IMG/VR virus record: IMGVR_UViG_3300017748_000005
Span: 1-64,000 of that record
Reading direction: 5' to 3' (one strand)
Length of the DNA: 64,000 nt
From: a virus
Below the pieces are notes generated by a model. That model was given only the letters and a program-made list of their open reading frames with translations, did not search any database and had not been told where the DNA came from. The position numbers and the translations under genes are program-made. This document shows, one piece after another, positions 7,600-62,030 of this stretch (position 1 is the stretch's first letter; every line of letters starts with the position of its first letter).

Positions 7600-8082
7600 T
7601 TAGCGCCAAATCTGATTAAGCATAATTCGTGAACCTACCGCTGTATCTGCTGGCCCGGGCACAGCCATGATAAATTCAGCACCACTTCTTTCAAATGCAT
7701 ACCTTCTATATTCTGGGCGACGGTAGTTAGGCACGTATAGTGTTTCTGCCATTCGATCTACTTCTCTTAAATAAATTTCTCGAAAATATTCATCACCTTT
7801 CAATGGGTCAGAGGTTGCCATCGTTCGTTGAACGTCACCAGCTATCTGCTCTAACCGACTGTAGTTTGGACTACCGTTAGCATCTCTAGGGAAGTATTCA
7901 GAGTTTTCCCAAGCAGTATCACATCGGCGAACATGATTAATAATCTGGTTATAGAAAAACTCATCTGGTATTACAGATAGAGCTTCTTCTAGGCGTGATC
8001 GATCACCTGCTGGGATTTGTGAACCAGAGTTGAATCCAAGGTGGAAACGCACTTTTGACTTATTAAACTCATCTAGTTCCAT
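7600..8082 (-). CDS. Possible head-tail connector protein
   Basis: 160 residues, mixed alpha/beta, starting MELDEFNKSKVRFHLGF. It is tyrosine- and arginine-rich toward the C-terminus (YVPNYRRPEYRRYAFERSGAEF). Size, position after the capsid genes and the helical N-terminus are compatible with a neck or connector protein, but I recognise no family. It follows the 128-residue gene with a one-base overlap. Confidence 0.45.
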   Translation of the reverse strand: MELDEFNKSKVRFHLGFNSGSQIPAGDRSRLEEALSVIPDEFFYNQIINHVRRCDTAWENSEYFPRDANGSPNYSRLEQIAGDVQRTMATSDPLKGDEYFREIYLREVDRMAETLYVPNYRRPEYRRYAFERSGAEFIMAVPGPADTAVGSRIMLNQIWR

Positions 8083-8468
8083 TACGCAATACCCATTTTA
8101 CTTACTTGGTCTGCCATCAAGAGTTGCATTCTTAGCTTGTCTTCTTCAGTTGCAGTCCCAGCCATTTCAGCTGCAAGAATCCGTGCTTCTTCTGAGTTGG
8201 CCAACATTTTATTTCTTATATCTTCGCCTAATTCTCCTCCAAGCGCTGCTCCAGCAAAGAGTCCTGTTAATCTAAATCCTGGTTTAAAACGATTATTTGT
8301 ACCACGAAGATGGCCAATACCTCGGCCTACTGGATGTAAGAGTTGACCAGAAGTAAGTCCAATAAGTGCTCCTGCTAGAGAGCCGCCAGCTTGTGCAACT
8401 TCGGGTGAACGTATTCCGCTACCTTTCTCTTTAAGTGCTGCCAGTAGCAACATCTCTTGTTCACTCAT
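8082..8468 (-). CDS. Glycine-zipper membrane-active protein (hypothetical)
   Basis: 128 residues. Two Gly/Ala-rich hydrophobic segments (GGSLAGALIGLTSGQLL and LTGLFAGAALGGELG) have the small-residue spacing of glycine zippers, so the protein may insert in a membrane during DNA ejection or lysis. Both ends are charged and helical. A TAAACT box (in CTTATAGTTTATC) lies 24 nt upstream. Confidence 0.5.
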   Translation of the reverse strand: MSEQEMLLLAALKEKGSGIRSPEVAQAGGSLAGALIGLTSGQLLHPVGRGIGHLRGTNNRFKPGFRLTGLFAGAALGGELGEDIRNKMLANSEEARILAAEMAGTATEEDKLRMQLLMADQVSKMGIA

Positions 8469-8491
8469 CTTACTGCCGCATGATTACTTAT

Positions 8492-8497
8492 AGTTTA
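8492..8497 (-). promoter_or_regulatory. TAAACT late-type -10 box
   Basis: TAAACT on the minus strand, 24 nt before the start of the 128-residue gene. The surrounding GATAAACTATA is shared with the box at 3288. Confidence 0.45.
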
Positions 8498-8932
8498 TCA
8501 AGCAATGAAAATTAGATCATCTGCAATCAGCTGTTCCCAGTTAACACGGGGGATATTTTCTAGCTGCTTCAGATTGCTAAACCGCTCACCAGAGAGTGAA
8601 CAACGTAGTTCAACAATGCGCTTTGCAGTTGCATACCCCACGCCAGGCAGTCGCTTGGCAATCAGTTCTGGGGGTGCCAGATTCAAGTTAAGACGGGTGT
8701 CATTCAGAGGAACAACGCGCTCCGGCATTTGCTCTTCTTCTGTTTTTTGAATCTGTGGAGCTTCGACTTTCGCGAGGCGACCCTTCTCGGTATCGTATGG
8801 AATAAGTGAATCAAGATCTACATACTTGATTGCACCGTCTCCAGTACGAACCATTGCATATTCACCGTCGTGCTTTGAGATAAATTCGACAAGCGCTCCA
8901 GTCTTCTCGTCCTGAAAAAGATTGCTAGACAT
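8498..8932 (-). CDS. Helix-hairpin-helix protein
   Basis: 144 residues. The N-terminal half reads as a small beta domain (GALVEFISKHDGEYAMVRTGDGAIKYVD). The C-terminal half has a ComEA-like helix-hairpin-helix signature (LNLNLAPPELIAKRLPGVG followed by YATAKRIVELR), which in known families binds DNA non-specifically. The setting, just after the capsid gene, suggests a virion or packaging-associated DNA-binding role. It has its own TATAAT box 24 nt upstream, beyond the capsid terminator. Confidence 0.65.
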   Translation of the reverse strand: MSSNLFQDEKTGALVEFISKHDGEYAMVRTGDGAIKYVDLDSLIPYDTEKGRLAKVEAPQIQKTEEEQMPERVVPLNDTRLNLNLAPPELIAKRLPGVGYATAKRIVELRCSLSGERFSNLKQLENIPRVNWEQLIADDLIFIA

Positions 8933-9015: not shown

Positions 9016-9570
9016 TCAGGAACCCTGACCAGCTTCAATCTTGTAACCGAGATGGACATCTTCTGCATCAGGCGCAGGAGAATCCAAGTAGTAGCAGACT
9101 TCTACAATCACAGCGGCAGTATCACCAGCATCGACGACATTAAGGTCGGCGGAAGCAGTGGCGGTCACACCAGTGGCAGAGCCAAGTGCGGACAGCTGAG
9201 TAGAAGGGTCGTAGCTGCTAGCTGCACCATCAGGGAACGCACCACTAGAAGCAGTGAGTGTTACACCACCGGAGATTCCGGTAGCCTGAACGGTCGCAGA
9301 ACCAGTAGAAGACAGGTTCTTAGTGTTAACAGCAGTGCGATAGATCTTGGCACCAGCAGGGATGGTCAAGGTCTTATCCAAACGAGGCTTGTCGTCGCCG
9401 CGTTGGTCAGGTGAAGGTACGACCAAAGGCAGGGTGCCAGAAGACACGGTGCCGTTTGCCACATACACACCAATGACGCGGTAGAACTCAACGCCTGGAA
9501 GTGCTTCAACGCCTTGGGCCTTGTAAGCATTCAGATGGGTAACGTAGTTACCGGGAAAAATGACGGACAT
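9016..9570 (-). CDS. Capsid-associated (decoration-like) protein
   Basis: 184 residues. It is rich in Ser, Thr, Ala and Gly with many predicted beta strands (IPAGAKIYRTAVNTKN; ATGVTATASADLNVVDAG) and has no signal peptide. It directly follows the major capsid gene (11-nt gap) and ends just before a strong terminator, so capsid protein and this protein share one transcript. Placement and beta-rich character fit a capsid decoration or minor head protein. Exact family unknown. Confidence 0.6.
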   Translation of the reverse strand: MSVIFPGNYVTHLNAYKAQGVEALPGVEFYRVIGVYVANGTVSSGTLPLVVPSPDQRGDDKPRLDKTLTIPAGAKIYRTAVNTKNLSSTGSATVQATGISGGVTLTASSGAFPDGAASSYDPSTQLSALGSATGVTATASADLNVVDAGDTAAVIVEVCYYLDSPAPDAEDVHLGYKIEAGQGS

Positions 9571-9581
9571 TGTTAATTACC

Positions 9582-10730
9582 TCAATATACGAAAGAGTAA
9601 CCAACAGTGATGAAGTCCTTATTCAGAACTTCAAATCCGGCAAACAGAGACCAGATCATGATGATGAAACGAGAGAAATCGTCGTTATTGTTCAACAGGA
9701 TCTGAGCGTTGTTGCCACCGATGCCCACGCCAACAGCCTGAGGGCCGAAGAAGATCAGCTGGCTAGCTGCATAATCAGCAGCAGAAGCGTCAGAGTCAGC
9801 AACCACAAGGTTGTAGTTGGTCTCAGGGAGGTTGGTGGACTCGAACCAGCGGACGCCTTCGAAAAGGAAGCCAGAAGGCATAACGGGTTGTCCAGCAACG
9901 AAGCCAGCCTGACCGTATGCAGGACCCATGCCTTGGTAGAAGTTGGCGTTAGGGGCTTCAGCAGGAGACATCGGGTTGATCATTCCGCTACCGGGGTAAC
10001 GAGCGATCTCACGGAAGTCACTGTTTTGACGGAGATGCATCATCGCGGTTGGATCCACGATGCAGCGGTAGTAACCATCAGAGAAGGTAGGAACATTGCG
10101 CTTACGCATGTCCTTAACCACCTCAAGCAGGTCGGTGGTGACATCGAACTTGGCAGATTCACCAGTTCCGTAGGTCACACCCAGGGTTCCACCGGAACCA
10201 CCTTTGGCCTTACCACCGGGCAGGTAGTAACCACCTTGATCCTTAGAAGCAGCACCGTTGGCTTCTGCTTTCAAGAGTTCGTTAGCGAACACACGGTCGC
10301 GCCAGCGGCGATAGTCATCCAGAAGGGTCAGTGAACCGATCGACTGGTGGAAGACGTTCAGGTTGCCAGTGTCGAGAAGCAGACGCTGAGCAGTGATCAG
10401 GGTCTCACGGGCTACCTTGAAGGTAGAAGGTTGAGCAGAATCGCGGGTATCAGCAGGTCCGGTGTACTCACGAAGAGTTACCAGAACCTTGTCCTTAACG
10501 ATGTTACGTGCGGAAGAAGTTCCAAGTGTTTGGTCGGCAGTACGCTCACGAGACTCCTTGGTGCCAGGCTTACCCCAGAAGCGATAGCGGTCCAGTTGAA
10601 CTGTCTGGCCGGGTTGCTTGCTGAAGTCATGTACCACCACAGGTTCCACAGCCATCTCAATGATGTATGCCGGGTGCGGACGGTAAAGTTCTGCACCAAG
10701 AAGCTTCGGAAAATCATTATCAATCCACAT
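9582..10730 (-). CDS. Major capsid protein
   Basis: 382 residues. It has the layout of an HK97-fold capsid protein of the N4 gp56-like type: an N-terminal arm, a long helix (LDDYRRWRDRVFANELLKAEAN), a glycine-rich loop (GGYYLPGGKAKGGSGG) and a P-domain segment VPTFSDGYYRCIVDPTAMM with the following DFREIARYPG. A codon choice different from its neighbours (many CGT, AAG, ACC) suggests high expression. It is transcribed leftward with the decoration-like gene. No TANAAT box lies at the usual distance; the leader of about 100 nt contains TATATA and TATATT stretches instead. Confidence 0.8.
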   Translation of the reverse strand: MWIDNDFPKLLGAELYRPHPAYIIEMAVEPVVVHDFSKQPGQTVQLDRYRFWGKPGTKESRERTADQTLGTSSARNIVKDKVLVTLREYTGPADTRDSAQPSTFKVARETLITAQRLLLDTGNLNVFHQSIGSLTLLDDYRRWRDRVFANELLKAEANGAASKDQGGYYLPGGKAKGGSGGTLGVTYGTGESAKFDVTTDLLEVVKDMRKRNVPTFSDGYYRCIVDPTAMMHLRQNSDFREIARYPGSGMINPMSPAEAPNANFYQGMGPAYGQAGFVAGQPVMPSGFLFEGVRWFESTNLPETNYNLVVADSDASAADYAASQLIFFGPQAVGVGIGGNNAQILLNNNDDFSRFIIMIWSLFAGFEVLNKDFITVGYSFVY

Positions 10731-10839
10731 GGGATAATAACTCCAAAACTAAAAGGTTTATTGCGACGTGTTTGTCACATACATCAACTATATATGTGTT
10801 TAAGATAATATATAAGATATACCTCAAAATACTGTGGTT

Positions 10840-11202
10840 ATGGAATTTATAGATAGCAATGAATGGGTGCCTATTCATACCCTCCCAGGATTTGAATGCT
10901 GCATTGAATATTACGTAAGTAAGACCGGATTAGTTAAATCTACCAAGGGTTTAGTTGAGAGAGTGCTTAAACCTAAAACCAGTAAACGCGGATATCTATC
11001 TGTTAATCTAACTCAACGTATTGGACGTAAAACTACAATATCAGTTTATATTCATAAGCTGGTAGCTTTGGCTTTCCTGCCAACTGCACCTACTCCTTAT
11101 GGACGTAAAAAAGGCTGTAGCGGTATTACTCATATCAATGGAGATCGTTCCAATTGCAGCGTAGGTAATTTAAAGTGGTCTACTCGTAATCATCTACAAT
11201 AG
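10840..11202 (+). CDS. NUMOD4-HNH homing endonuclease
   Basis: 120 residues from the ATG at 10840; GTG 10834 is an alternative. The N-terminus EWVPIHTLPGFECCIEYYVSK matches the NUMOD4 DNA-binding motif. The C-terminal part contains the HNH_3 pattern ITHINGDRSNCSVGNLKWST. NUMOD4-HNH proteins cut DNA site-specifically and spread selfishly. It sits on the opposite strand between the capsid gene and an Ig-like protein gene, so it is free-standing and not inside an intron. Small, AT-rich and oriented against its surroundings, it is likely an insertion. Confidence 0.85.
   Translation: MEFIDSNEWVPIHTLPGFECCIEYYVSKTGLVKSTKGLVERVLKPKTSKRGYLSVNLTQRIGRKTTISVYIHKLVALAFLPTAPTPYGRKKGCSGITHINGDRSNCSVGNLKWSTRNHLQ
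11195..11200 (+). promoter_or_regulatory. TACAAT late-type -10 box
   Basis: TACAAT on the plus strand at the end of the HNH gene, 30 nt before the Ig-like protein gene. It would let that late gene be expressed independently. Confidence 0.4.
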
Positions 11203-11230: not shown

Positions 11231-11890
11231 ATGGCTGACAGACTTACCCTCAAAGGTTATAAAGTAGTTACCGGACAGACAGGCTCTGACCTTAGTTGGG
11301 TTCAGCCTATGAAAGGAGGTGACTTTCACTTATTTCCTCGTTGGTGGAACAAGAAAAACACTGTGCAGTATGAGGCCGTAACTATTTTTAGACTTTCTCG
11401 GGCTGCGGGAGATCTTGATATTGTAATCCCTACATCACTTCAATCTAAACTTGAAATTATGTGGGATGATGCAACTGAATCATTTAAGTTTCCTTACCAC
11501 CGAGGAATCGAACGCATTGGTATATATGCAGCGAATGGGTCAACATTGCTACAGGAATATCAGTTCTCTCGCATCGCTGGAGGTTCTGTACTGAAACGCT
11601 CTCTGACTAATTTGCCTTCGCCTACTATTGGCAATGCATCTATTACCGGATCTGCCACAGCTGATGTTGGAATTTCCCAGAACTACTCAATTGCTTTTGA
11701 TGGTGATGCAGGAGATGCTGTCTACGCATGGACCACATCAGATAGCTCAGCAGCATTGTTGAATGAGAACACCGCTACATTAAGCGTAGTCTTCAGTGCT
11801 GAGGGTGATTACGACATTTCTTGCACAATCACTTCTGTTCTTTCTAGTGATACTCCAGTCGCTGAAACCTTCTCAGTAACTGCTACCTAA
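11231..11890 (+). CDS. Capsid-region decoration protein with C-terminal Ig/PKD-like domain
   Basis: 219 residues. The N-terminal domain (residues 1-125) is unknown, with GGDFHLFPRWWNKKN and IERIGIYAANGSTLLQEYQF strands. Residues 130-219 look like a PKD/Ig-like beta sandwich (ISQNYSIAFDGDAGDAVYAWTTS ... VVFSAEGDYDISCTIT). Such domains decorate capsids and fibres and can bind glycans. It is rightward inside a leftward structural cluster and ends tail-to-tail with an 18-bp overlap of the 234-residue gene. Confidence 0.6.
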   Translation: MADRLTLKGYKVVTGQTGSDLSWVQPMKGGDFHLFPRWWNKKNTVQYEAVTIFRLSRAAGDLDIVIPTSLQSKLEIMWDDATESFKFPYHRGIERIGIYAANGSTLLQEYQFSRIAGGSVLKRSLTNLPSPTIGNASITGSATADVGISQNYSIAFDGDAGDAVYAWTTSDSSAALLNENTATLSVVFSAEGDYDISCTITSVLSSDTPVAETFSVTAT

Positions 11891-12624: not shown

Positions 12625-13563
12625 TCATAGATATTCTGCGATTTGACTGCCATTTTCACGCAGACTTCTTAATGCCTTGTGTTCAAGAGTTCGCACGCGA
12701 TCACGACTCATATTGAGTACCTGCCCAATCGCGGTCATAGATAGTGGCTCCAAAATCTCATCACCAATTCCATAACGCATGCTAATTACTTCTGCTTGCA
12801 ATCTAGGCAGCATCGTAATTTCATTTCGAATATCTTCTTTAATGCACGCTGCTTCTAAGTTAATGTCTGGAGTCTGATCTTCATCTTCCAGCATGTCCAC
12901 AAGCGCTGTGTCGTGGTTCTCTCCAATCTTGATTTCTAAAGATGTTGGTTGACGAGCCTTGCACATCAAGTCTTTGACCTCATCTTGTGTCATGTTTAAC
13001 TCTTCGGCCAGTTCAGCTACGGTTGGTAAATATCCATTGAGCTGACTCAATTCACGCTGGGCTTTCTTAAGTTTGTTGAGGTTCTCCGTAACGTGGATTG
13101 GTAGGCGGATCGCTCTACTCTTCTCCGCGATGGCACGAGTGATCCCTTGGCGAATCCACCAATATGCGTAGGTAGAAAACTTATAGCCACGACCAGGATC
13201 AAACTTTTCAACACCACGGATAAGGCCAATTGTTCCCTCTTGAATGATATCCAAAAGTTCCATATTCCGTTTCGTATACTTCTTTGCAACACTAACGACC
13301 AACCGTAAGTTTGCAGTAACCATTTTGTCTTTCGCTCGGGCACCATCACGAAGCTCACGCAATACTTGCCGAACTGGTATATCAAGTGATTCAGCTAAAC
13401 CTGCATTGTCAAGTTCAAGCTCTTTCTTCATTTCGTTCAGTTCAATAAGTCTTTGAACTTTTCGACCAAGCAAAATCTCTTCATCATGAGCAAGCAAGGG
13501 TATCCTGCCAATGTCCTTAAGATAAGCTCTTACTGGATCACTAGTTATTTTTTGTTGGGGCAT
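12625..13563 (-). CDS. Complete host-like sigma-70 factor (RpoD/SigA-like group 1/2)
   Basis: 312 residues with all the core regions of a primary-type sigma factor. Region 1.2 is DPVRAYLKDIGRIPLL. Regions 2.1-2.4 run from LRLVVSVAKKYTKRN through GTIGLIRGVEKFDPGRGYKF to STYAYWWIRQGITRAIAEKS. Region 3 is ENLNKLKKAQRELSQLNG. Region 4.2 is SMTAIGQVLNMSRDRVRTLE. Region 1.1 is absent, as in cyanobacterial group 2 factors. It would recruit host RNA polymerase, probably to late phage promoters, since no phage RNA polymerase is in the window. Its own gene carries a TAGAAT box 24 nt upstream, so it may be autoregulated. It differs from the short T4 gp55-type factor of cyanomyoviruses. Confidence 0.93.
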   Translation of the reverse strand: MPQQKITSDPVRAYLKDIGRIPLLAHDEEILLGRKVQRLIELNEMKKELELDNAGLAESLDIPVRQVLRELRDGARAKDKMVTANLRLVVSVAKKYTKRNMELLDIIQEGTIGLIRGVEKFDPGRGYKFSTYAYWWIRQGITRAIAEKSRAIRLPIHVTENLNKLKKAQRELSQLNGYLPTVAELAEELNMTQDEVKDLMCKARQPTSLEIKIGENHDTALVDMLEDEDQTPDINLEAACIKEDIRNEITMLPRLQAEVISMRYGIGDEILEPLSMTAIGQVLNMSRDRVRTLEHKALRSLRENGSQIAEYL

Positions 13564-14486: not shown

Positions 14487-15527
14487 TCACATGTCTTGGA
14501 TCAGAGCCTTGGTCTGGAATGCAGCGCCAGGAGCCTGTGACAGGTACTTCCATGCATTCTCAGGAGAGGAATCCATCATCTCGCTGAATCCGTTCCAGAA
14601 GTTACGAGCATCGTTACCGGGTGCCTGTCCTGGAGTTGGCATTTCCATTTGAGGACGCTGGAATGCTGCAGGAACTTGGCGTTGCTCTTGAGCTGCAATT
14701 TCAGCTTCAAACTGAGCACGTGCGTTGTGAGCGGCAGATGCGGCTGCTTCTTCGGCAGTCTCGGTCGGATAAGGACCATTTGCACCGAAGAAGTCGTTGA
14801 CGTAATCAGCAAGAATGTCTGGATCAGTCAGCATGATGTTCATAGCTGCACGCTCTTCACCGGCTGCATTCAGCATCAGGTTCATTGCCTGGCCAGTCTT
14901 GACTTGCTCGATCAGAGCATCTTCAACAGCGCATGCATACTCATTAAGCAGAGCAGGAGCTTCTGCACCAAAATGCTCAAGAACCTCAAGGCTTGTATCG
15001 GAGACTTGGCTCAGATATGAATCACTTGCGCTTCCTGCGGCTTGAGCCTGTTGGACGCTGGGGCTGCTGAGGTACTGGGCTTGAGCCAGGGCGGCCAATT
15101 GGGCCTGGTCCGCGAGCACCTGCTCCGAATACGCCGGGGTTGAAGCTTGGGGACTGAACGTCTGGGGTGCCGAATACTGGGCTTGCTGCTGTTGCTGAAT
15201 TGAACCCAAGGGTGCTTGGAAGCTGGCCTGTGGGGTCGGTGTCTGGTAAGCCGAGTACGGAGCCTGGGCTTGGGATTGGCTGGGCGTATTCAGACTTGCG
15301 CTCAAAGCCTGGAAGGCTTCCTGCCATGGATTGCCCTGAGCTGCCGGGGCCGCCTGCTGTTGGTAAACCGGAGCCGGAGCTGCCGGTGCTTGAACCGTCG
15401 TCGGTGACGCCTGGTAGCTTAATCCTGCGCTCATCGCGGATGGACTGGCCGCGCTCGGAGCGGAGCCTGTCGGCATCGCTGAGCTTGCTGGGGCGGTTGT
15501 CGCTACTGCTTGGTTGATACCTTCCAC
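14487..15527 (-). CDS. Probable capsid scaffolding protein overlapping the portal gene
   Basis: 346 residues from a GTG at 15525-15527. Residues 1-165 are a low-complexity Ala/Gln/Pro/Ser arm encoded out of frame over the 3' end of the portal gene. Residues 170-346 are acidic and helical (LLNEYACAVEDALIEQVKTG; DPDILADYVNDFFGANG; NFWNGFSEMMDSSPENAW), as in scaffolding proteins. The start is supported by a strong Shine-Dalgarno (AAGGAG, ten bases upstream) inside the portal coding region. Position between portal and capsid genes is the classical scaffold position. The protein probably directs shell assembly and then leaves the head. Confidence 0.75.
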   Translation of the reverse strand: MEGINQAVATTAPASSAMPTGSAPSAASPSAMSAGLSYQASPTTVQAPAAPAPVYQQQAAPAAQGNPWQEAFQALSASLNTPSQSQAQAPYSAYQTPTPQASFQAPLGSIQQQQQAQYSAPQTFSPQASTPAYSEQVLADQAQLAALAQAQYLSSPSVQQAQAAGSASDSYLSQVSDTSLEVLEHFGAEAPALLNEYACAVEDALIEQVKTGQAMNLMLNAAGEERAAMNIMLTDPDILADYVNDFFGANGPYPTETAEEAAASAAHNARAQFEAEIAAQEQRQVPAAFQRPQMEMPTPGQAPGNDARNFWNGFSEMMDSSPENAWKYLSQAPGAAFQTKALIQDM

Positions 15528-17289
15528 TGTAACTTAACTCCTTACGTAAAAATTCGAGAGATCTATATAGGAAACCTGTGATATCTAGGTTGGGATCTGA
15601 TGCCAACGGTAGATTCGGTGTTTGAGGATGAGGCAATTGATATAATTGTCCCAACAAGCCGATAAAAGATTGCAGGCTTTGTTGAGTTTGTTGAACCATT
15701 CTAAACGGATACCCAGAAAGCATTGCTGCTCTCTCTTCATCTGTTTTTCCTGGGAAGAGGTACTTGAGTGCCTCAATCGAATCAACACCTAGTTCTTGAA
15801 GGTTTCTGACGACAATACTGTTATTAAGTATGTCTTGAGTGTCATCTTCAAAGACTTCGCCGGTCCACCGCCAAGAAACTTTAGTGTTTCCGTCAGGGAT
15901 AAGACCAACTACTCCTGGAGGGATGTCTCCTGCATCAAGTTTAGCACGGAACTGTTCATCCCTAGCTTTGAGAAAATCAGCCTGAAAAATATTATATGTT
16001 GCTAATGCTTTCTCATATCCCTGTTCGTCATTAGCAAATTCTTCTCTCAAAGGTATAACCGGCTTCTCTAGACCTGCAGCTCGTGCGAAGGATTCCTCAA
16101 ACAGGAATTCCTCGTGTTGAATCATCATAGAGAAGGTCTTGCATAACCCGAACTCAAACATCGACTTTGCTTTTTTCTCTGCAGTAGCCGCAACTCGTCC
16201 ATACAGAGATTTAATTTCATATGCAGTCGATGCAGTGTTAATGTCAATATCATCCACTCCGCCTAGAGCGAGGCGAATTTCACTGCGATACTGTTTTACA
16301 TATAGGTTCTGATCACCGCTAACAGCATCAGGTGTCATGTAACTGACACGATCTGTGGGTTCTAGGTTTGCAATGACCCTAGGCACCTTGATTTGACCAT
16401 CTAATGGCGAGGGTCCCCCAAAGGGCATACCCGGTGCCGACATTGGTTTGAAACCGGCAGCAGATGAAATGGTGGGACGGGATGCACCGTCATTCCCACT
16501 TTCAACAATGTCATGTTTAGGTCTGCTGGATACCAACGTTGGGTTGCCGAAGAACTTCATGTTCTTTCGGACATTACGCACAAGTTCATCATGGAACATG
16601 ATCTGATGGCTAAGCCAATCAAACTCACCACGCCCTGTAGTTTCTCCTGTGCAATCAAGATGGTTGAAGATTTCTACAGCAGGAATGAACCCAAGACTAT
16701 TTGTCAAAGTCTCTGTTTGACCAGGCTTCTGCTGAGCCATATAGCCTGTATTATTATCATCAAATTCAATCTTCTCATCAGAGATTGTTTGTTCAATACG
16801 ATCTTTGTATACCGACAATCTGATGTACTTTTTCCGACCACCACGTCGCGATGACTGGCCATATTGGGAAGAAGACATTTGTCCTCCGAACCCTTTCCCT
16901 TTTACAGCAAAACTATAAATGAGTACAACATTATTGATTTCGTTATTTTGATCTCGATAACAACGATAGCGGTCCTTCGGGAAATAAAGTAATTGATAGC
17001 TTTCGCCGGATGGGCGGAAGTAGAACAAACCCTGACCATCACACAAGAAATGATCGATGATGCTGTCAAGCTTCATCTCAAGCATGTTGGTGTCGTAGAT
17101 ACTTTTCAAGAAATCACGACGCTTGCCGTAGGAATCTTGCTCACAATAAAATTCAATACCTCTACGGAGAATGAACGTACGCATCTGAGCTAGATGCGAC
17201 GCAACAATCATTGTGTCAGTGTTTGTATCTCCACGACGGGCTTTGGCAGATTCTAGGATCTCCTGAAACTGTGGATTAATGTTACTCAT
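15022..17289 (-). CDS. Portal protein
   Basis: 755 residues. The N-terminal half has typical portal features: FYCEQDSYGKRRDFLKSIYD, DSIIDHFLCDGQGLFYFRPSG, RYRCYRDQNNEINNVVLIYS. The stem-like helical middle includes RLALGGVDDIDINTASTAYE. From about residue 585 the protein is disordered, Gly/Ser/Pro-rich, ending in a basic tail (RPTGSSRRKRK). The last 506 bases also encode the scaffold N-terminus in another frame. It forms the dodecameric DNA entry ring at one capsid vertex. A TAGAGT box 21 nt upstream is a weak promoter candidate. Confidence 0.8.
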   Translation of the reverse strand: MSNINPQFQEILESAKARRGDTNTDTMIVASHLAQMRTFILRRGIEFYCEQDSYGKRRDFLKSIYDTNMLEMKLDSIIDHFLCDGQGLFYFRPSGESYQLLYFPKDRYRCYRDQNNEINNVVLIYSFAVKGKGFGGQMSSSQYGQSSRRGGRKKYIRLSVYKDRIEQTISDEKIEFDDNNTGYMAQQKPGQTETLTNSLGFIPAVEIFNHLDCTGETTGRGEFDWLSHQIMFHDELVRNVRKNMKFFGNPTLVSSRPKHDIVESGNDGASRPTISSAAGFKPMSAPGMPFGGPSPLDGQIKVPRVIANLEPTDRVSYMTPDAVSGDQNLYVKQYRSEIRLALGGVDDIDINTASTAYEIKSLYGRVAATAEKKAKSMFEFGLCKTFSMMIQHEEFLFEESFARAAGLEKPVIPLREEFANDEQGYEKALATYNIFQADFLKARDEQFRAKLDAGDIPPGVVGLIPDGNTKVSWRWTGEVFEDDTQDILNNSIVVRNLQELGVDSIEALKYLFPGKTDEERAAMLSGYPFRMVQQTQQSLQSFIGLLGQLYQLPHPQTPNLPLASDPNLDITGFLYRSLEFLRKELSYSGRYQPSSSDNRPSKLSDADRLRSERGQSIRDERRIKLPGVTDDGSSTGSSGSGLPTAGGPGSSGQSMAGSLPGFERKSEYAQPIPSPGSVLGLPDTDPTGQLPSTLGFNSATAASPVFGTPDVQSPSFNPGVFGAGARGPGPIGRPGSSPVPQQPQRPTGSSRRKRK

Positions 17290-18493: not shown

Positions 18494-20032
18494 TTACTCT
18501 GAGAAGCTACTATCATTATATTCTAATTGTAACGCCCCTCTTCTTAACAAACCTCCCATGGTAAGCACCATTGAGTCAACAGCATCATCATGTGCAGTTT
18601 GTCCGAAATTCAATAGCTCATCTTCAAGGATGTCCCATTTCCGCCACTTATTCCATATCACCTTTTTGTGCTCATAAAGCCCTAGTACACCACGTAAACG
18701 TGATAACTTGTCGCCTTTAAATCCTTTTACCGGACTACAGCTTAGGTTATACAAGCCACGTTGCTCAAACATTACACGCTTAAAGTCACCTTCAAATGAC
18801 GATTGATAAGCTACAGCTTCTGGCCAGATTACACACGACGAAGTTGTAGGGAAATAATTACCATCTTCGTTCTCAAGAAGAATGTTCCAGTCCGAAAGCA
18901 TTTCACATAAAACATCCATCTTCTCAATGTTTCCCATTGACTTTATTCGTCGTTGATCTATTAAATATATTTTTCCATTATCAATACCTCCTAGCGTGAA
19001 AACTGTGTAATCATTCTTTTCGTTTAAACCTGCACTAAGGTCGATTCCAACTCCTATGCAATCAAATGATTCTGGTGTCACACCTTTGACGATCAGTTCA
19101 GGTGATAGCCCCACATCACCTGACTTTACAGCTGTATTTAAATACTGATATGCAAAAGCAATTCTGTCTTCTAGCTTTCGTTCATTCAAGTATTTCATCG
19201 ACCACATTTCTGGCCAATACGATCTCTGCCTACCTTCTGCGTCTGTTATCACCGCTTTCTGCACAATCTGTTTCCAGTTGTTCTTAGGAACGAAGAGAGT
19301 GGCATGTATGTCGTCGAAGTGGAACCTCGTTCCCAGGCAAATAGCGCGTGCCCCCTGAAACATCGTCGGTGCAATAACGTTAGACCACGTCTGTTCCATT
19401 TCACGACGTATGTCAGGGTTTGTGATTGACGCAGCGGATTTAATAGGGTCATCGATAAGCACCAACTGCGACCGTTTTGACGTGATCGCACCTTTGAGAC
19501 CTCCACAAGCAATGGTGAATGCCTCTTCACCAGCTGTGTCAATGCCTGCAAATTCATAGTCAATACTCCAGTATTCATCTGATCGCTTGATCTTTGATAG
19601 TCTTACCATTGGAAAGATTTCACGATACTTTGGACTGGAAAGTATTCCCTTAATCGTTGCACTTTTTGCTCGACTAATGTCAACCATATAAGCGATATAC
19701 AAAATGCGCAGCATCTTTTTCTCCGCTGCATGTCGTCCTATCATCCAAGCCGCAAACAACCCTAAAACTGTGCTTTTAGCTGATCCTCGTGGTGCAAGGA
19801 TTGAAGTATTTGGCCCAGCAATTCCGCTTAATACCTCACTATCCTCACCTGTACACAACTCATGATGCCATTCCATCATGTGTTTGGCAGGAGGCTTCCC
19901 CATGATCTTGCAGAAGGCCATGAAGTTATCTCTTGCTTCTAATACTTCTTCACTAGGTGGCTTTGTAGTTACCTTTGTTGCTTTCATCATCGCATTGCGA
20001 CGATACGCCAAAGAGATACTCACTCCTGACAT
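18494..20032 (-). CDS. terL: Terminase large subunit (packaging ATPase-nuclease)
   Basis: 512 residues. The Walker A motif is ILAPRGSAKSTVLGLFAAW and Walker B is QLVLIDDPIKSAAS with a following acidic residue. The C-terminal nuclease domain starts at GVGIDLSAGLNEKNDYTVFT, and HDDAVDSMVLTMGGLL gives its last acidic metal ligands. It translocates DNA into the prohead through the portal and cuts the concatemer. It lies after the presumed small terminase and precedes the portal, the usual order. Confidence 0.93.
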   Translation of the reverse strand: MSGVSISLAYRRNAMMKATKVTTKPPSEEVLEARDNFMAFCKIMGKPPAKHMMEWHHELCTGEDSEVLSGIAGPNTSILAPRGSAKSTVLGLFAAWMIGRHAAEKKMLRILYIAYMVDISRAKSATIKGILSSPKYREIFPMVRLSKIKRSDEYWSIDYEFAGIDTAGEEAFTIACGGLKGAITSKRSQLVLIDDPIKSAASITNPDIRREMEQTWSNVIAPTMFQGARAICLGTRFHFDDIHATLFVPKNNWKQIVQKAVITDAEGRQRSYWPEMWSMKYLNERKLEDRIAFAYQYLNTAVKSGDVGLSPELIVKGVTPESFDCIGVGIDLSAGLNEKNDYTVFTLGGIDNGKIYLIDQRRIKSMGNIEKMDVLCEMLSDWNILLENEDGNYFPTTSSCVIWPEAVAYQSSFEGDFKRVMFEQRGLYNLSCSPVKGFKGDKLSRLRGVLGLYEHKKVIWNKWRKWDILEDELLNFGQTAHDDAVDSMVLTMGGLLRRGALQLEYNDSSFSE

Positions 20033-59008: not shown

Positions 59009-59545
59009 ATGACTACACCTGTGCTATTCGATATTGAATCCACTGGTCTTCTCAGACAAGGGAGCAGCATTCACTGCATCGTTGCTCGTGAACTAATCGA
59101 GCCTGATGAAGTTGAAGTGTTTGATATTCATCGCCCTGACAGCACCATCAATATGGGTGTCGAGCGGTTAAAAGAAGCACCAATTCTTGTTGGGCACAAC
59201 ATAGCTACCTATGACATCCCTCTTATCCAAGAGGCTTATGACTTTGACTATCAAGGTGAAATTTTTGACACTCTTGTACTATCTCGTCTTTTTTATCCTG
59301 ACATCAAAGAAAGAGATTTCGAACGTAGGCCAGCAGGTATGCCAGCAAAGTTATATGGCTCTCATGGATTAGAAGCTTGGGGTCATCGGTTGCGATGCTT
59401 CAAAGGTGACTTTGGTAAGCATCATGATTGTTGGAAAGTTTACACTCCTGAGATGCTTGATTATTGCATTCAAGATACACTAGTCAATGTGAAACTATAT
59501 GATCTCATGATGCGAAGGATGGATGATTATGTTACCACCAAATGA
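59009..59545 (+). CDS. DNA polymerase 3'-5' exonuclease domain as a separate protein
   Basis: 178 residues from ATG 59009, four bases after the previous stop. The DEDD exonuclease motifs are TPVLFDIESTGLL (Exo I), LVGHNIATYDIPLIQEAYDF (Exo II), and LDYCIQDTLVNVKLYDLMM (Exo III). GSHGLEAWGHRLRCFKGDFG matches the T7 polymerase exonuclease domain. The polymerase domain is encoded separately at 59942. It provides proofreading. Confidence 0.88.
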   Translation: MTTPVLFDIESTGLLRQGSSIHCIVARELIEPDEVEVFDIHRPDSTINMGVERLKEAPILVGHNIATYDIPLIQEAYDFDYQGEIFDTLVLSRLFYPDIKERDFERRPAGMPAKLYGSHGLEAWGHRLRCFKGDFGKHHDCWKVYTPEMLDYCIQDTLVNVKLYDLMMRRMDDYVTTK

Positions 59546-59687: not shown

Positions 59688-59952
59688 AAAACAATTGCCT
59701 ACAAAAGATGCTCCGCTTAGCGTAGAAGAATTTCAAGCTGCTGCTGATATCTTTTTTCCGCTCTACAACGTTGTCTCTTCCGAAATGGCGGGGGCAAAGG
59801 TTGAGGACATTTTGAAAGTTATGGAAAATCTTGCAAAGCTTGCTCACCGTGAGCGTGCCAAAGCTCGTGAAGAATCAATAAAACTTAAGTTTGGTTTTAA
59901 CCGTTCCAACAAAGAAGACAACGAAAAGGAGAATGACGACGATGCTGAATGA
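59677..59952 (+). CDS. 91-residue acidic-tailed helical protein (hypothetical)
   Basis: A helical part (VEEFQAAADIFFPLYNVVSS and LKVMENLAKLAHRERAKARE), basic in the middle and strongly acidic at the C-terminus (NKEDNEKENDDDAE). Overlaps both neighbours. Placed in the split polymerase locus, it may be an accessory subunit; unproven. Confidence 0.5.
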   Translation: MTTKKQLPTKDAPLSVEEFQAAADIFFPLYNVVSSEMAGAKVEDILKVMENLAKLAHRERAKAREESIKLKFGFNRSNKEDNEKENDDDAE

Positions 59953-61246
59953 CTTCGTAGACCTTGAGATGCGTATGGCTGTGCTGATGGCGCAGCAAGA
60001 ACAATCTGGATTCCGCTTTGACAAAGAAGCTGCCATTGAAGTTCGTGCAGAACTGCAGCAAGAGGTCAACGATATTCAACAGAAAATCAAGTCTTGCTTT
60101 CTGTTTGTGCCTGGCAAAGTATTTACACCTAAACGCAATGATAAAAAAGCAGGGTATGTAGCAGGCTCGCCTCTCACCAAGTTGATTGAATTCAATCCCA
60201 CTAGCCGTCAGCACATTGCATGGGCACTGCAGCACCACAGCGGAGCACGCTTTACTAAGACTACTGACACTGGTAAACCCAAAGTTGACGAAGCTACGCT
60301 TTCTGAAATCCGTGACATTGCACTACAGCAAAGCAACCCCAAGCTCCATGCAGAGTGTGAGATGTTCATTCGCCTCCTCACTTTGCAAAAGTGGTTGGGT
60401 CAACTTTCTGAAGGTGCTAACTCCTGGTTCAATACCGTTGAAGATGATGGCTGTATTCACCACAGCTGTTCCCTAGCAACAGTTACGGGCCGGAATGTGC
60501 ACCGGGGTCCAAATCTCGGGCAAGTGGTCAGTGCTCCTTGGGCACGCAGGCTCTTCATTCCTCACCCAGGTCACGTCATGGTTGGATGCGACCTTGAAGG
60601 GCTAGAGCTGAGATGCCTTGGGCATTTCCTACATCGCTTTGACAACGGAGCCTTTGCTGATGTCGTAATCAACGGCGATATCCACCAACAGAATGCTGAT
60701 CGTGTGGGATGCACACGGAAGGAAGTGAAGACCCTTACCTACGCATTTATCTATGGGGCGGGCGATGTGAAGTTGGGTCATAGTCTTAGCCCTGAGCTAT
60801 CTGATGCAGCCAAAAAACGTCTCGGCTCAGAGTTGCGTAAAAAGTTCTTGGAAGCGATTCCTGGCTTAGAACCTCTGATCGTTGCAGTCAAAGCTAAAGC
60901 CAACCGTACAGGGCGCTTACGTGGCTTAGATGGTCGTCCTGTGTTTGTACGCGCAGAACACGCTTCTTTGAATTTTTTACTTCAGAGTGCGGGTGCCGTA
61001 CTGAGTAAGCGCTGGTGTGTTATCGCACAAGATATGATTAATAATTCAGGACTTGTTTATCACACAGACTATACACGTTGCGCATATGTACATGACGAAC
61101 AGCAGTTCTCAGTCATTCCAAGCGAAGCTGATCGCGTTGCAAGAATCTTGGTTGAGGCAGCACCTCGTGCCGGTCAACACTACGACTTTAAAATACCCAT
61201 CACCGCCTCGTCAGACGTAGGCAACTCATGGTCTGATACTCATTGA
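59942..61246 (+). CDS. Family A DNA polymerase domain (T7-like)
   Basis: 434 residues from ATG 59942 (overlaps the gene before by 11 bases). Motif A is VGCDLEGLELRCLGHFLHRF, motif B is CTRKEVKTLTYAFIYGAGDV, and motif C is YVHDEQQFSV. Motif B has Tyr at the T7 Tyr526 position. There is no exonuclease or 5' nuclease domain. It replicates the phage genome together with the separate exonuclease. Confidence 0.93.
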   Translation: MLNDFVDLEMRMAVLMAQQEQSGFRFDKEAAIEVRAELQQEVNDIQQKIKSCFLFVPGKVFTPKRNDKKAGYVAGSPLTKLIEFNPTSRQHIAWALQHHSGARFTKTTDTGKPKVDEATLSEIRDIALQQSNPKLHAECEMFIRLLTLQKWLGQLSEGANSWFNTVEDDGCIHHSCSLATVTGRNVHRGPNLGQVVSAPWARRLFIPHPGHVMVGCDLEGLELRCLGHFLHRFDNGAFADVVINGDIHQQNADRVGCTRKEVKTLTYAFIYGAGDVKLGHSLSPELSDAAKKRLGSELRKKFLEAIPGLEPLIVAVKAKANRTGRLRGLDGRPVFVRAEHASLNFLLQSAGAVLSKRWCVIAQDMINNSGLVYHTDYTRCAYVHDEQQFSVIPSEADRVARILVEAAPRAGQHYDFKIPITASSDVGNSWSDTH

Positions 61247-61247
61247 T

Positions 61248-61415
61248 ATGTTTGAATTTAGTGTTGATAAAGAAGGGCTCATTGTGCTTGTCCAAGCAAT
61301 GGATATGTATCTTGAGCGATGGCCTGGTGGCGATGCTGAACAACAGCAGCAAATCAAAGATATGGGAGATGTTCTCCATCGTGCGTTGCTTGAAGCAGCT
61401 TTTTACGATGGATAG
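61248..61415 (+). CDS. 55-residue protein (hypothetical)
   Basis: MFEFSVDKEGLIVLVQAMDM, then a helical acidic part. Starts one base after the polymerase stop. Function unknown. Confidence 0.5.
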   Translation: MFEFSVDKEGLIVLVQAMDMYLERWPGGDAEQQQQIKDMGDVLHRALLEAAFYDG

Positions 61416-61417
61416 AC

Positions 61418-61549
61418 ATGAAAAACATGATCAAAATTACTCCTGAAACATACAAAAAAATGAATGAGAGCTTTAAAGAAGAAGCTCTACCTTTTCGTAT
61501 TGAAGTTCCTACACAGGAGCAAATTGATAAGTGGCAACGAAAGCTCTAA
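61418..61549 (+). CDS. 43-residue protein (hypothetical)
   Basis: MKNMIKITPETYKKMNESFK and a helix ending QIDKWQRKL. Basic. Last gene of the polymerase operon. Function unknown. Confidence 0.45.
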   Translation: MKNMIKITPETYKKMNESFKEEALPFRIEVPTQEQIDKWQRKL

Positions 61550-61582
61550 ATGTTCTCCGTGAACGATTAGCCGTTGCTACAC

Positions 61583-61588
61583 TATAAA
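61583..61588 (+). promoter_or_regulatory. -10 box before the riboswitch
   Basis: TATAAA six bases before the riboswitch P1 stem; the -35 is poor. Confidence 0.45.
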
Positions 61589-61592
61589 TATA

Positions 61593-61649
61593 CGTTCATC
61601 TCAACACATTGATTGTTGAGACGCAAGTAGGTCAGAGACCGAAGGAACG
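61593..61649 (+). ncRNA. Glutamine riboswitch (glnA / downstream-peptide type)
   Basis: P1 CGTTC ... GAACG, P2 CTCAAC ... GTTGAG, then the conserved ACGCAAGTAGGTC, P3 GGTC-AGA-GACC, and CGAAGGAACG. This order matches the downstream-peptide/glnA RNA class, known to bind glutamine and common in marine Synechococcus and their phages. It precedes a small peptide gene, the typical arrangement. A downstream hairpin GGGGAA ... TTTCC could mask the Shine-Dalgarno. Confidence 0.9.
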
Positions 61650-61678
61650 GGGAATTTCACCTCACTATGGAGTTTCCA

Positions 61679-61834
61679 ATGACTACAGTACAACTAATGG
61701 GTCTTGTTCGCGCCCAGAAAAAAGCAAAGCGTTCAAACCTCGAACTCTCGCATCATCAAGAGCGTGAGCTTTCAACAGAGCAAAAAGCAGGTCGCTGCTA
61801 CACCTATCGTGGAGTGGAGTATTGCTACCGCTAA
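61679..61834 (+). CDS. Riboswitch-controlled small peptide
   Basis: 51 residues from ATG 61679 (Shine-Dalgarno GGAG seven bases upstream; ATG 61667 in frame is an alternative). Basic N-terminal helix (LVRAQKKAKRSNLELSHHQE), C-terminus GRCYTYRGVEYCYR like the DUF4278 YRGVxY motif of cyanobacterial small proteins. Since a glutamine riboswitch controls it, it may act on nitrogen or glutamine-synthetase control, as GS inactivating factors do; sequence proof is lacking. Confidence 0.65.
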   Translation: MTTVQLMGLVRAQKKAKRSNLELSHHQERELSTEQKAGRCYTYRGVEYCYR

Positions 61835-61980
61835 AAACTAAATACACCTGCAAGTACAAAGACGGAACTGTCGTGAAAGACTTGTCTTATGACGACAGTT
61901 ATTCTTTGTTTCAAGAAGCACTAGGTACAAGCAACACTTGCTCCGTGTACCCAATGAACACAAACTACAACAGATCATAA
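61822..61980 (+). CDS. 52-residue protein, TTG start (hypothetical)
   Basis: TTG 61822, overlapping the peptide gene by 13 bases. PLKTKYTCKYKDGTVVKDLS with two beta strands, then a helix. Its TAA is the last codon before the UAAC hairpin stem. Start uncertain. Confidence 0.4.
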   Translation: MLPLKTKYTCKYKDGTVVKDLSYDDSYSLFQEALGTSNTCSVYPMNTNYNRS

Positions 61981-62004
61981 GCAGGCTAACGCCTGCTTTT
62001 TTTA
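61979..62004 (+). terminator. UAAC-tetraloop terminator
   Basis: AAGCAGGC, TAAC, GCCTGCTT, TTTTT. Confidence 0.9.
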
Positions 62005-62030
62005 TTGCGTTCAATATATTCAAACATCAC

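Follow-up and report, generated by a model that had tools for sequence, protein, structure and literature searches.

Within a window of 64,000 nucleotides, the whole stretch analysed here and part of a 69.5-kb virus record (IMG/VR IMGVR_UViG_3300017748_000005), a portal gene and the gene that follows it share 506 bases in two reading frames. The locus raises the question of whether this DNA truly encodes two proteins, what the second of them is, and which of the two readings came first.

The overlap in the window

The shared stretch and its immediate surroundings comprise the following features:

15022–17289, minus strand: portal gene, 755 amino acids
14487–15527, minus strand: second gene (probable scaffold), 346 amino acids, GTG start, residues 1–168 lying in the overlap
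15022–15527, minus strand: dual-coding stretch, portal residues 588–755 in frame 0 and residues 1–168 of the probable scaffold in frame +1, assigned on purifying selection in both frames in three clades and a drop in portal synonymous diversity
15528–15543, minus strand: putative ribosome-binding site AAGGAG with a 10-nt spacer, within portal codons 583–588

The portal gene matches phrog_20475 (E 7e-176, PHROG). Its AlphaFold model, of modest confidence (mean pLDDT 54), resembles predicted viral portals as well as the portals of T7 (gp8), 80alpha, SaPI1 and PhiV-1 (Foldseek E 2e-5 to 1e-3, with PhiV-1 on top at 2.1e-5; TM-scores are low). Neither the portal nor the second protein has a sequence match among solved structures. 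A gene for the terminase large subunit (18494–20032, phrog_38) precedes the portal gene with one gene between, and this position together with the predicted fold supports the portal identity. The structured part of the model covers approximately residues 1–587; the Ser/Gly/Pro tail that follows has pLDDT mostly below 50, in agreement with the disordered C-terminus proposed in the first-pass annotation. The tail ends with a basic SSRRKRK in the window, and the last 20 portal residues have a mean net charge of +6.5 to +8.

The 506-bp extent of the overlap, the GTG start inside the portal gene and the AAGGAG ending 10 nt before it, all described in that annotation, are present in the window sequence at the exact coordinates listed above, and the second frame is +1 relative to the portal. 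An in-frame TAA lies just upstream of the GTG, so the second open reading frame has no possible earlier start. The GC content of the overlap is indeed higher than in the 900 nt upstream (0.63 versus 0.43). However, dual coding does not strictly demand such a value, contrary to what had been assumed: part of the excess arises because the portal residues encoded here are rich in Gly, Pro and Ala, and a value of 0.55 is expected for the window portal tail under the codon usage of the portal body. Synonymous recoding of the same tail leaves the +1 frame open in 9–17% of cases; the length of the overlap alone is thus weak evidence, and relatives were therefore used.

Conservation and selection in relatives

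Loci were gathered by portal protein searches of viral contigs and genome contigs and fall into three clades: A, window-like (84 loci); B, S-EIV1-like (81); and C (76). Portal identity between clades is roughly 45–49%. Synechococcus phage S-EIV1 is the only close cultured relative of the window virus in the phage collection. Contigs of this phage group (L163–L170) come from metagenome bins labelled Blastopirellula, Rhodobacteraceae, Crocinitomicaceae and Euryarchaeota, labels that probably reflect binning contamination.

The +1 overlap is kept in all 241 loci in which both genes are readable, with a length of 446–641 nt and no stop codon in the +1 frame across it, a count that includes near-duplicates and is not a tally of independent events. 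A separate search with the scaffold core of clade C recovered 21 loci, all 21 with the overlap; no scaffold gene lacking an overlapping portal was found among them. Whereas the window alone offers weak evidence, this conservation argues strongly for a real overlap, one that would predate the divergence of clades A, B and C.

Conservation extends to the start region: a distance of 13 or 16 nt separates the start codon from the portal motif KE[LM][ST]Y[AS]G in every locus. In clades A and B the Shine-Dalgarno sequence and the start codon are found where expected, and in clade A, to which the window belongs, both are nearly invariant; in clade C the Shine-Dalgarno sequence is only weak. Inside the arm, one motif stands out:

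15312–15332, minus strand: NPWQEAF motif of the probable scaffold, residues 66–72, encoded over portal GQSMAGS

P67, W68, A71 and F72 are invariant in the alignment of clades A and B, the PW pair occurs, across all clades, in every sequence whose core is readable, and the NPW..AF pattern is conserved between clades.

Substitution patterns were examined by classing the differences between disjoint close pairs according to their effect in each frame. The rates per site in the clade A overlap are 0.085 for changes altering only the scaffold, 0.115 for those altering only the portal and 0.035 for those altering both. The resulting dNN/dNS of the scaffold frame in the overlap is 0.30, 0.27 and 0.34 in clades A, B and C, respectively, versus 0.69–0.80 in a control, the +1 frame of the portal gene outside the overlap. 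The portal frame gives a dNN/dSN of 0.43–0.49 in the overlap, and the unused +2 frame, a second control, gives a ratio of 2.4. These values point to purifying selection on both frames in every clade. The comparison of synonymous change in relatives, which the first-pass annotation had suggested as a check, thus returned constraint on both frames, and the second frame, whose lack of conservation it had named as counter-evidence, is maintained in 241 of 241 loci and selected in three clades. At the sequence level, we consider dual coding established.

An accidental reading would have the +1 frame open by chance in the GC-rich, low-complexity portal tail, with the real second protein starting past the portal stop. 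The 9–17% chance estimated from the window alone leaves room for it, and it agrees with the GenBank annotation of S-EIV1, in which the second gene begins at 59863, beyond the portal stop. However, 241 loci without a stop, purifying selection specific to the scaffold frame in three clades, the conserved start region and the motif common to the clades make it hardly credible. S-EIV1 itself (KJ410740.1) carries the same overlap, 554 nt long, its ATG start accompanied by AAAAGGAG and its predicted scaffold arm covering residues 1 to about 184; only the 133 non-overlapping codons of its second gene are annotated (59863–60264, AHV82225), although the open frame that is conserved begins at 59287 (7730–8707 in our locus L002). 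This corrects how the gene is annotated in S-EIV1 and its relatives.

Silent positions of the portal change little in the overlap. At 10–15% divergence, third-position change is about six-fold lower there than in the body (0.054 versus 0.319). The ratio of observed to expected synonymous diversity is mostly about 0.7–0.95 in the body and 0.20–0.57 from residue 576 on, the drop beginning at the block that contains the ribosome-binding site. Among 60 clade A sequences, portal codons 583–589 are synonymously invariant or nearly so, with zero variation at codons 583, 584 and 587–589. Taken alone, such a drop could also arise from a nucleic-acid signal, namely an RNA structure or a packaging site, with no second protein involved, and the region does lie within the head module. 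Yet such a signal would not track +1 codons across 500 nt, as seen in the rates above, where portal-changing differences fall from 0.115 to 0.035 once they are no longer silent in the +1 frame, a pattern absent from the +2 frame. Nucleotide invariance resembling a signal is confined to the ribosome-binding site, and we find this explanation scarcely credible.

The +1 relation of the frames and the almost invariant codons around the site in clade A could also hint at a ribosomal frameshift in the portal gene, yielding a portal–scaffold fusion instead of a separately initiated protein. A stop codon, however, closes the +1 frame 3–6 nt upstream of the start in nearly all loci, which makes a frameshift product unlikely. 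The usual placement of the Shine-Dalgarno sequence and start codon in clades A and B also speaks against it, as does a locus (L081) in which the Shine-Dalgarno sequence is retained and the spacer altered. A frameshift thus appears very unlikely.

A genuine and old dual-coding overlap, with the second protein starting internally at +1, is in our view the highly probable explanation. One mRNA would carry the portal gene, with an internal ribosome-binding site and start placed after the codons of the last conserved portal helix; ribosomes would begin the second protein there at +1, and the shared stretch of about 500 nt would encode the disordered portal tail in one frame and an almost Lys/Arg-free, disordered scaffold arm in the other. 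Internal initiation on the portal message, by which the scaffold would be made in its own amount, most likely describes the expression of this pair. It may render the second protein independent of the portal, with many copies alongside twelve portal subunits. Arm and tail would both lie within the procapsid, which could bring the acidic scaffold into contact with the basic tail of the portal. A further suggestion, which we rate as distinctly unlikely, is that the overlap has been kept because the two disordered segments cooperate: within the procapsid the basic portal tail would meet the acidic scaffold so that assembly starts at the portal vertex, and sharing of DNA would keep the pair co-inherited and their synthesis linked.

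Identity of the second protein

The part of the second gene outside the overlap and the major capsid protein gene are located as follows:

14487–15021, minus strand: non-overlapping C-terminal part, mostly helical in the model and acidic, with a conserved FGxEAPxxLNxYA core
9582–10730, minus strand: major capsid protein gene, phrog_1357 major head protein (E 2e-18)

Homologs of the second protein occur in all clades. Its model (mean pLDDT 59) shows an arm predicted to be disordered apart from a short helix at NPWQEAF (residues 67–79), followed by helices in residues 177–345; the C-terminal part has a net charge of −19. The Ala/Gln/Pro character ascribed earlier to the arm holds, and in the window the arm contains no Lys or Arg at all. 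Comparison with PHROG, Pfam, PDB sequences and known folds gave no match of any kind, known scaffolds included. Scaffolds diverge fast, and the missing homology is weak evidence against such a role.

Gene order favors a scaffold. In 18 clade B loci the match to the major capsid protein starts 118–135 nt after the stop of the second gene, giving a direct order portal–X–major capsid. Nearly all other clade B loci have the capsid gene about 0.6–1.7 kb past this stop; in clade A the distance is about 2.8–4.3 kb, and a sigma factor and other genes are inserted between. The window major capsid protein is 67% identical to its S-EIV1 homolog.

We propose that the second protein is probably an assembly scaffold, on the basis of gene order and its helical, acidic C-terminus. 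The first-pass annotation had named it a scaffold outright; position and C-terminus make that name probable, not proven, and it is best described as a probable scaffold by position that belongs to none of the known scaffold families. The absence of a family or fold match, together with the several genes separating it from the capsid gene in the window, would also suit another internal head protein. This alternative appears unlikely given the 18 clade B loci, where the second gene is apparently the sole gene between portal and major capsid, and given the long disordered arm joined to an acidic helical C-terminus; furthermore, no other head-module gene tested came out as a scaffold. A probable scaffold absent from every family library searched is thereby exposed.

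The sigma-factor gene (phrog_351; 12625–13563, minus strand) lies in the window head module between the scaffold and capsid genes. In the stretches examined, it matches 63 of 84 clade A loci and none in clades B and C. Two open reading frames run opposite to the head genes: a short one beside the capsid gene at 10834–11202 (plus strand), by eye similar to HNH/NUMOD-type homing endonucleases, and a 219-aa frame at 11231–11890 (plus strand), the C-terminal part of which matches phrog_3086 (function unknown) and which, again by eye, is possibly Ig-like.

The major capsid gene of S-EIV1 is not annotated as a whole. It corresponds to a 383-aa open reading frame with a GTG start (9302–10453 in locus L002, KJ410740.1), over which the record places an antisense CDS (60784–61545) and a partial sense CDS (61540–62010). 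The window likewise contains a 254-aa frame antisense to the capsid gene (9570–10334, plus strand). Synonymous shuffles of the capsid gene yield antisense frames equally long, as they do for most relatives tested, and the 254-aa frame seems to be no more than a side effect of the codons used in the capsid gene.

Age of the two readings and comparison with known systems

The first-pass annotation proposed overprinting as the origin of the scaffold arm, which would make the arm younger than the portal tail whose DNA it uses. A distant portal relative in Acaryochloris phage A-HIS1 could favor this, being only 460 aa long and followed by a gene unrelated to the scaffold. Its portal core is homologous (hhalign E 7e-8), but the long tail is missing and so is a recognisable scaffold; tail and scaffold are therefore both less than universal.

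Two candidate indicators of age were rejected. Codon usage is atypical in both frames of the overlap. Raw dN/dS makes the scaffold frame look tighter, a bias of codon position that arises because portal-silent changes hit scaffold second positions and are more radical there. In a neutral simulation with BLOSUM62 the two frames are equal in clade A, the scaffold is tighter in clade B and the portal slightly tighter in clade C.

Constraint on the two frames is thus similar after codon-position correction, and the borders of the overlap also speak against overprinting of the arm. The portal stop lies 4–30 codons before the scaffold FGxEAP core in clade A and 4–6 codons before it in clade C; in clade B it lies 11–33 codons past the start of this core. 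The 5′ border of the overlap, marked by the start codon next to the last portal helix, is fixed; the 3′ border is mobile, the portal 3′ end being the side that moves. Since clades A and C read that part of the scaffold core in one frame only, the clade B arrangement is most simply an extension of the portal. We infer this for that part alone and with the clades unrooted; there it would reverse the order of events proposed earlier. For the arm as a whole, with its frames about equally constrained and the portal stop as the mobile border, a younger scaffold reading is possible, though doubtful, and the overprinting claim is not supported. Among the clades, a stop codon can be seen inside the conserved core of a neighboring gene, and together they provide a large natural data set on the evolution of two disordered proteins encoded by common DNA.

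Several known systems offer partial parallels. The lambda scaffold Nu3 is nested in the head protease gene C in the same frame, so that its sequence is common to both proteins. The likeness would be that translation of a scaffold begins inside another head gene and gives it a copy number of its own; here, by contrast, the two genes are read in different frames, the portal gene acts as host, and the probable scaffold extends past it. Head modules of the P22/SPP1/phi29 type keep portal, scaffold and coat genes close together, and the S-EIV1-like phages resemble them in the order portal–X–major capsid, with an X whose C-terminus is predicted to be helical and acidic. We know of no scaffold gene in those modules that overlaps the portal gene by hundreds of bases. 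Out-of-frame overlapping genes are found in lambda Rz/Rz1 and in phiX174, where they are lysis or small-genome genes and mostly fully nested. As in the present locus, a long stretch of phage DNA is read there in two frames of one strand, whereas here the overlap is terminal, joins two head genes and occurs in genomes of about 70–80 kb.

A virus-wide survey found +1 to be the commonest frame once overlaps of 1 and 4 nt are excluded, with a median +1 overlap of 14 nt (IQR 8–26), in contrast to 446–641 nt here; in dsDNA viruses, overlaps typically span a few to tens of bases, and long out-of-frame ones are rare (PMC8903798). A literature search, with most subscription journals outside its scope, found no report of an out-of-frame overlap between portal and scaffold genes. 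In a study of ocean viromes, the genus-level group that includes S-EIV1 (G238) accounted for about 3% of the cyanophage content (PMC5332604). Overlapping genes as such are already known; what is new is the out-of-frame variant formed by a portal and a probable scaffold, an unusually long overlap that joins two head genes and has persisted in three diverged clades of a lineage of tailed cyanophages widespread in the environment.
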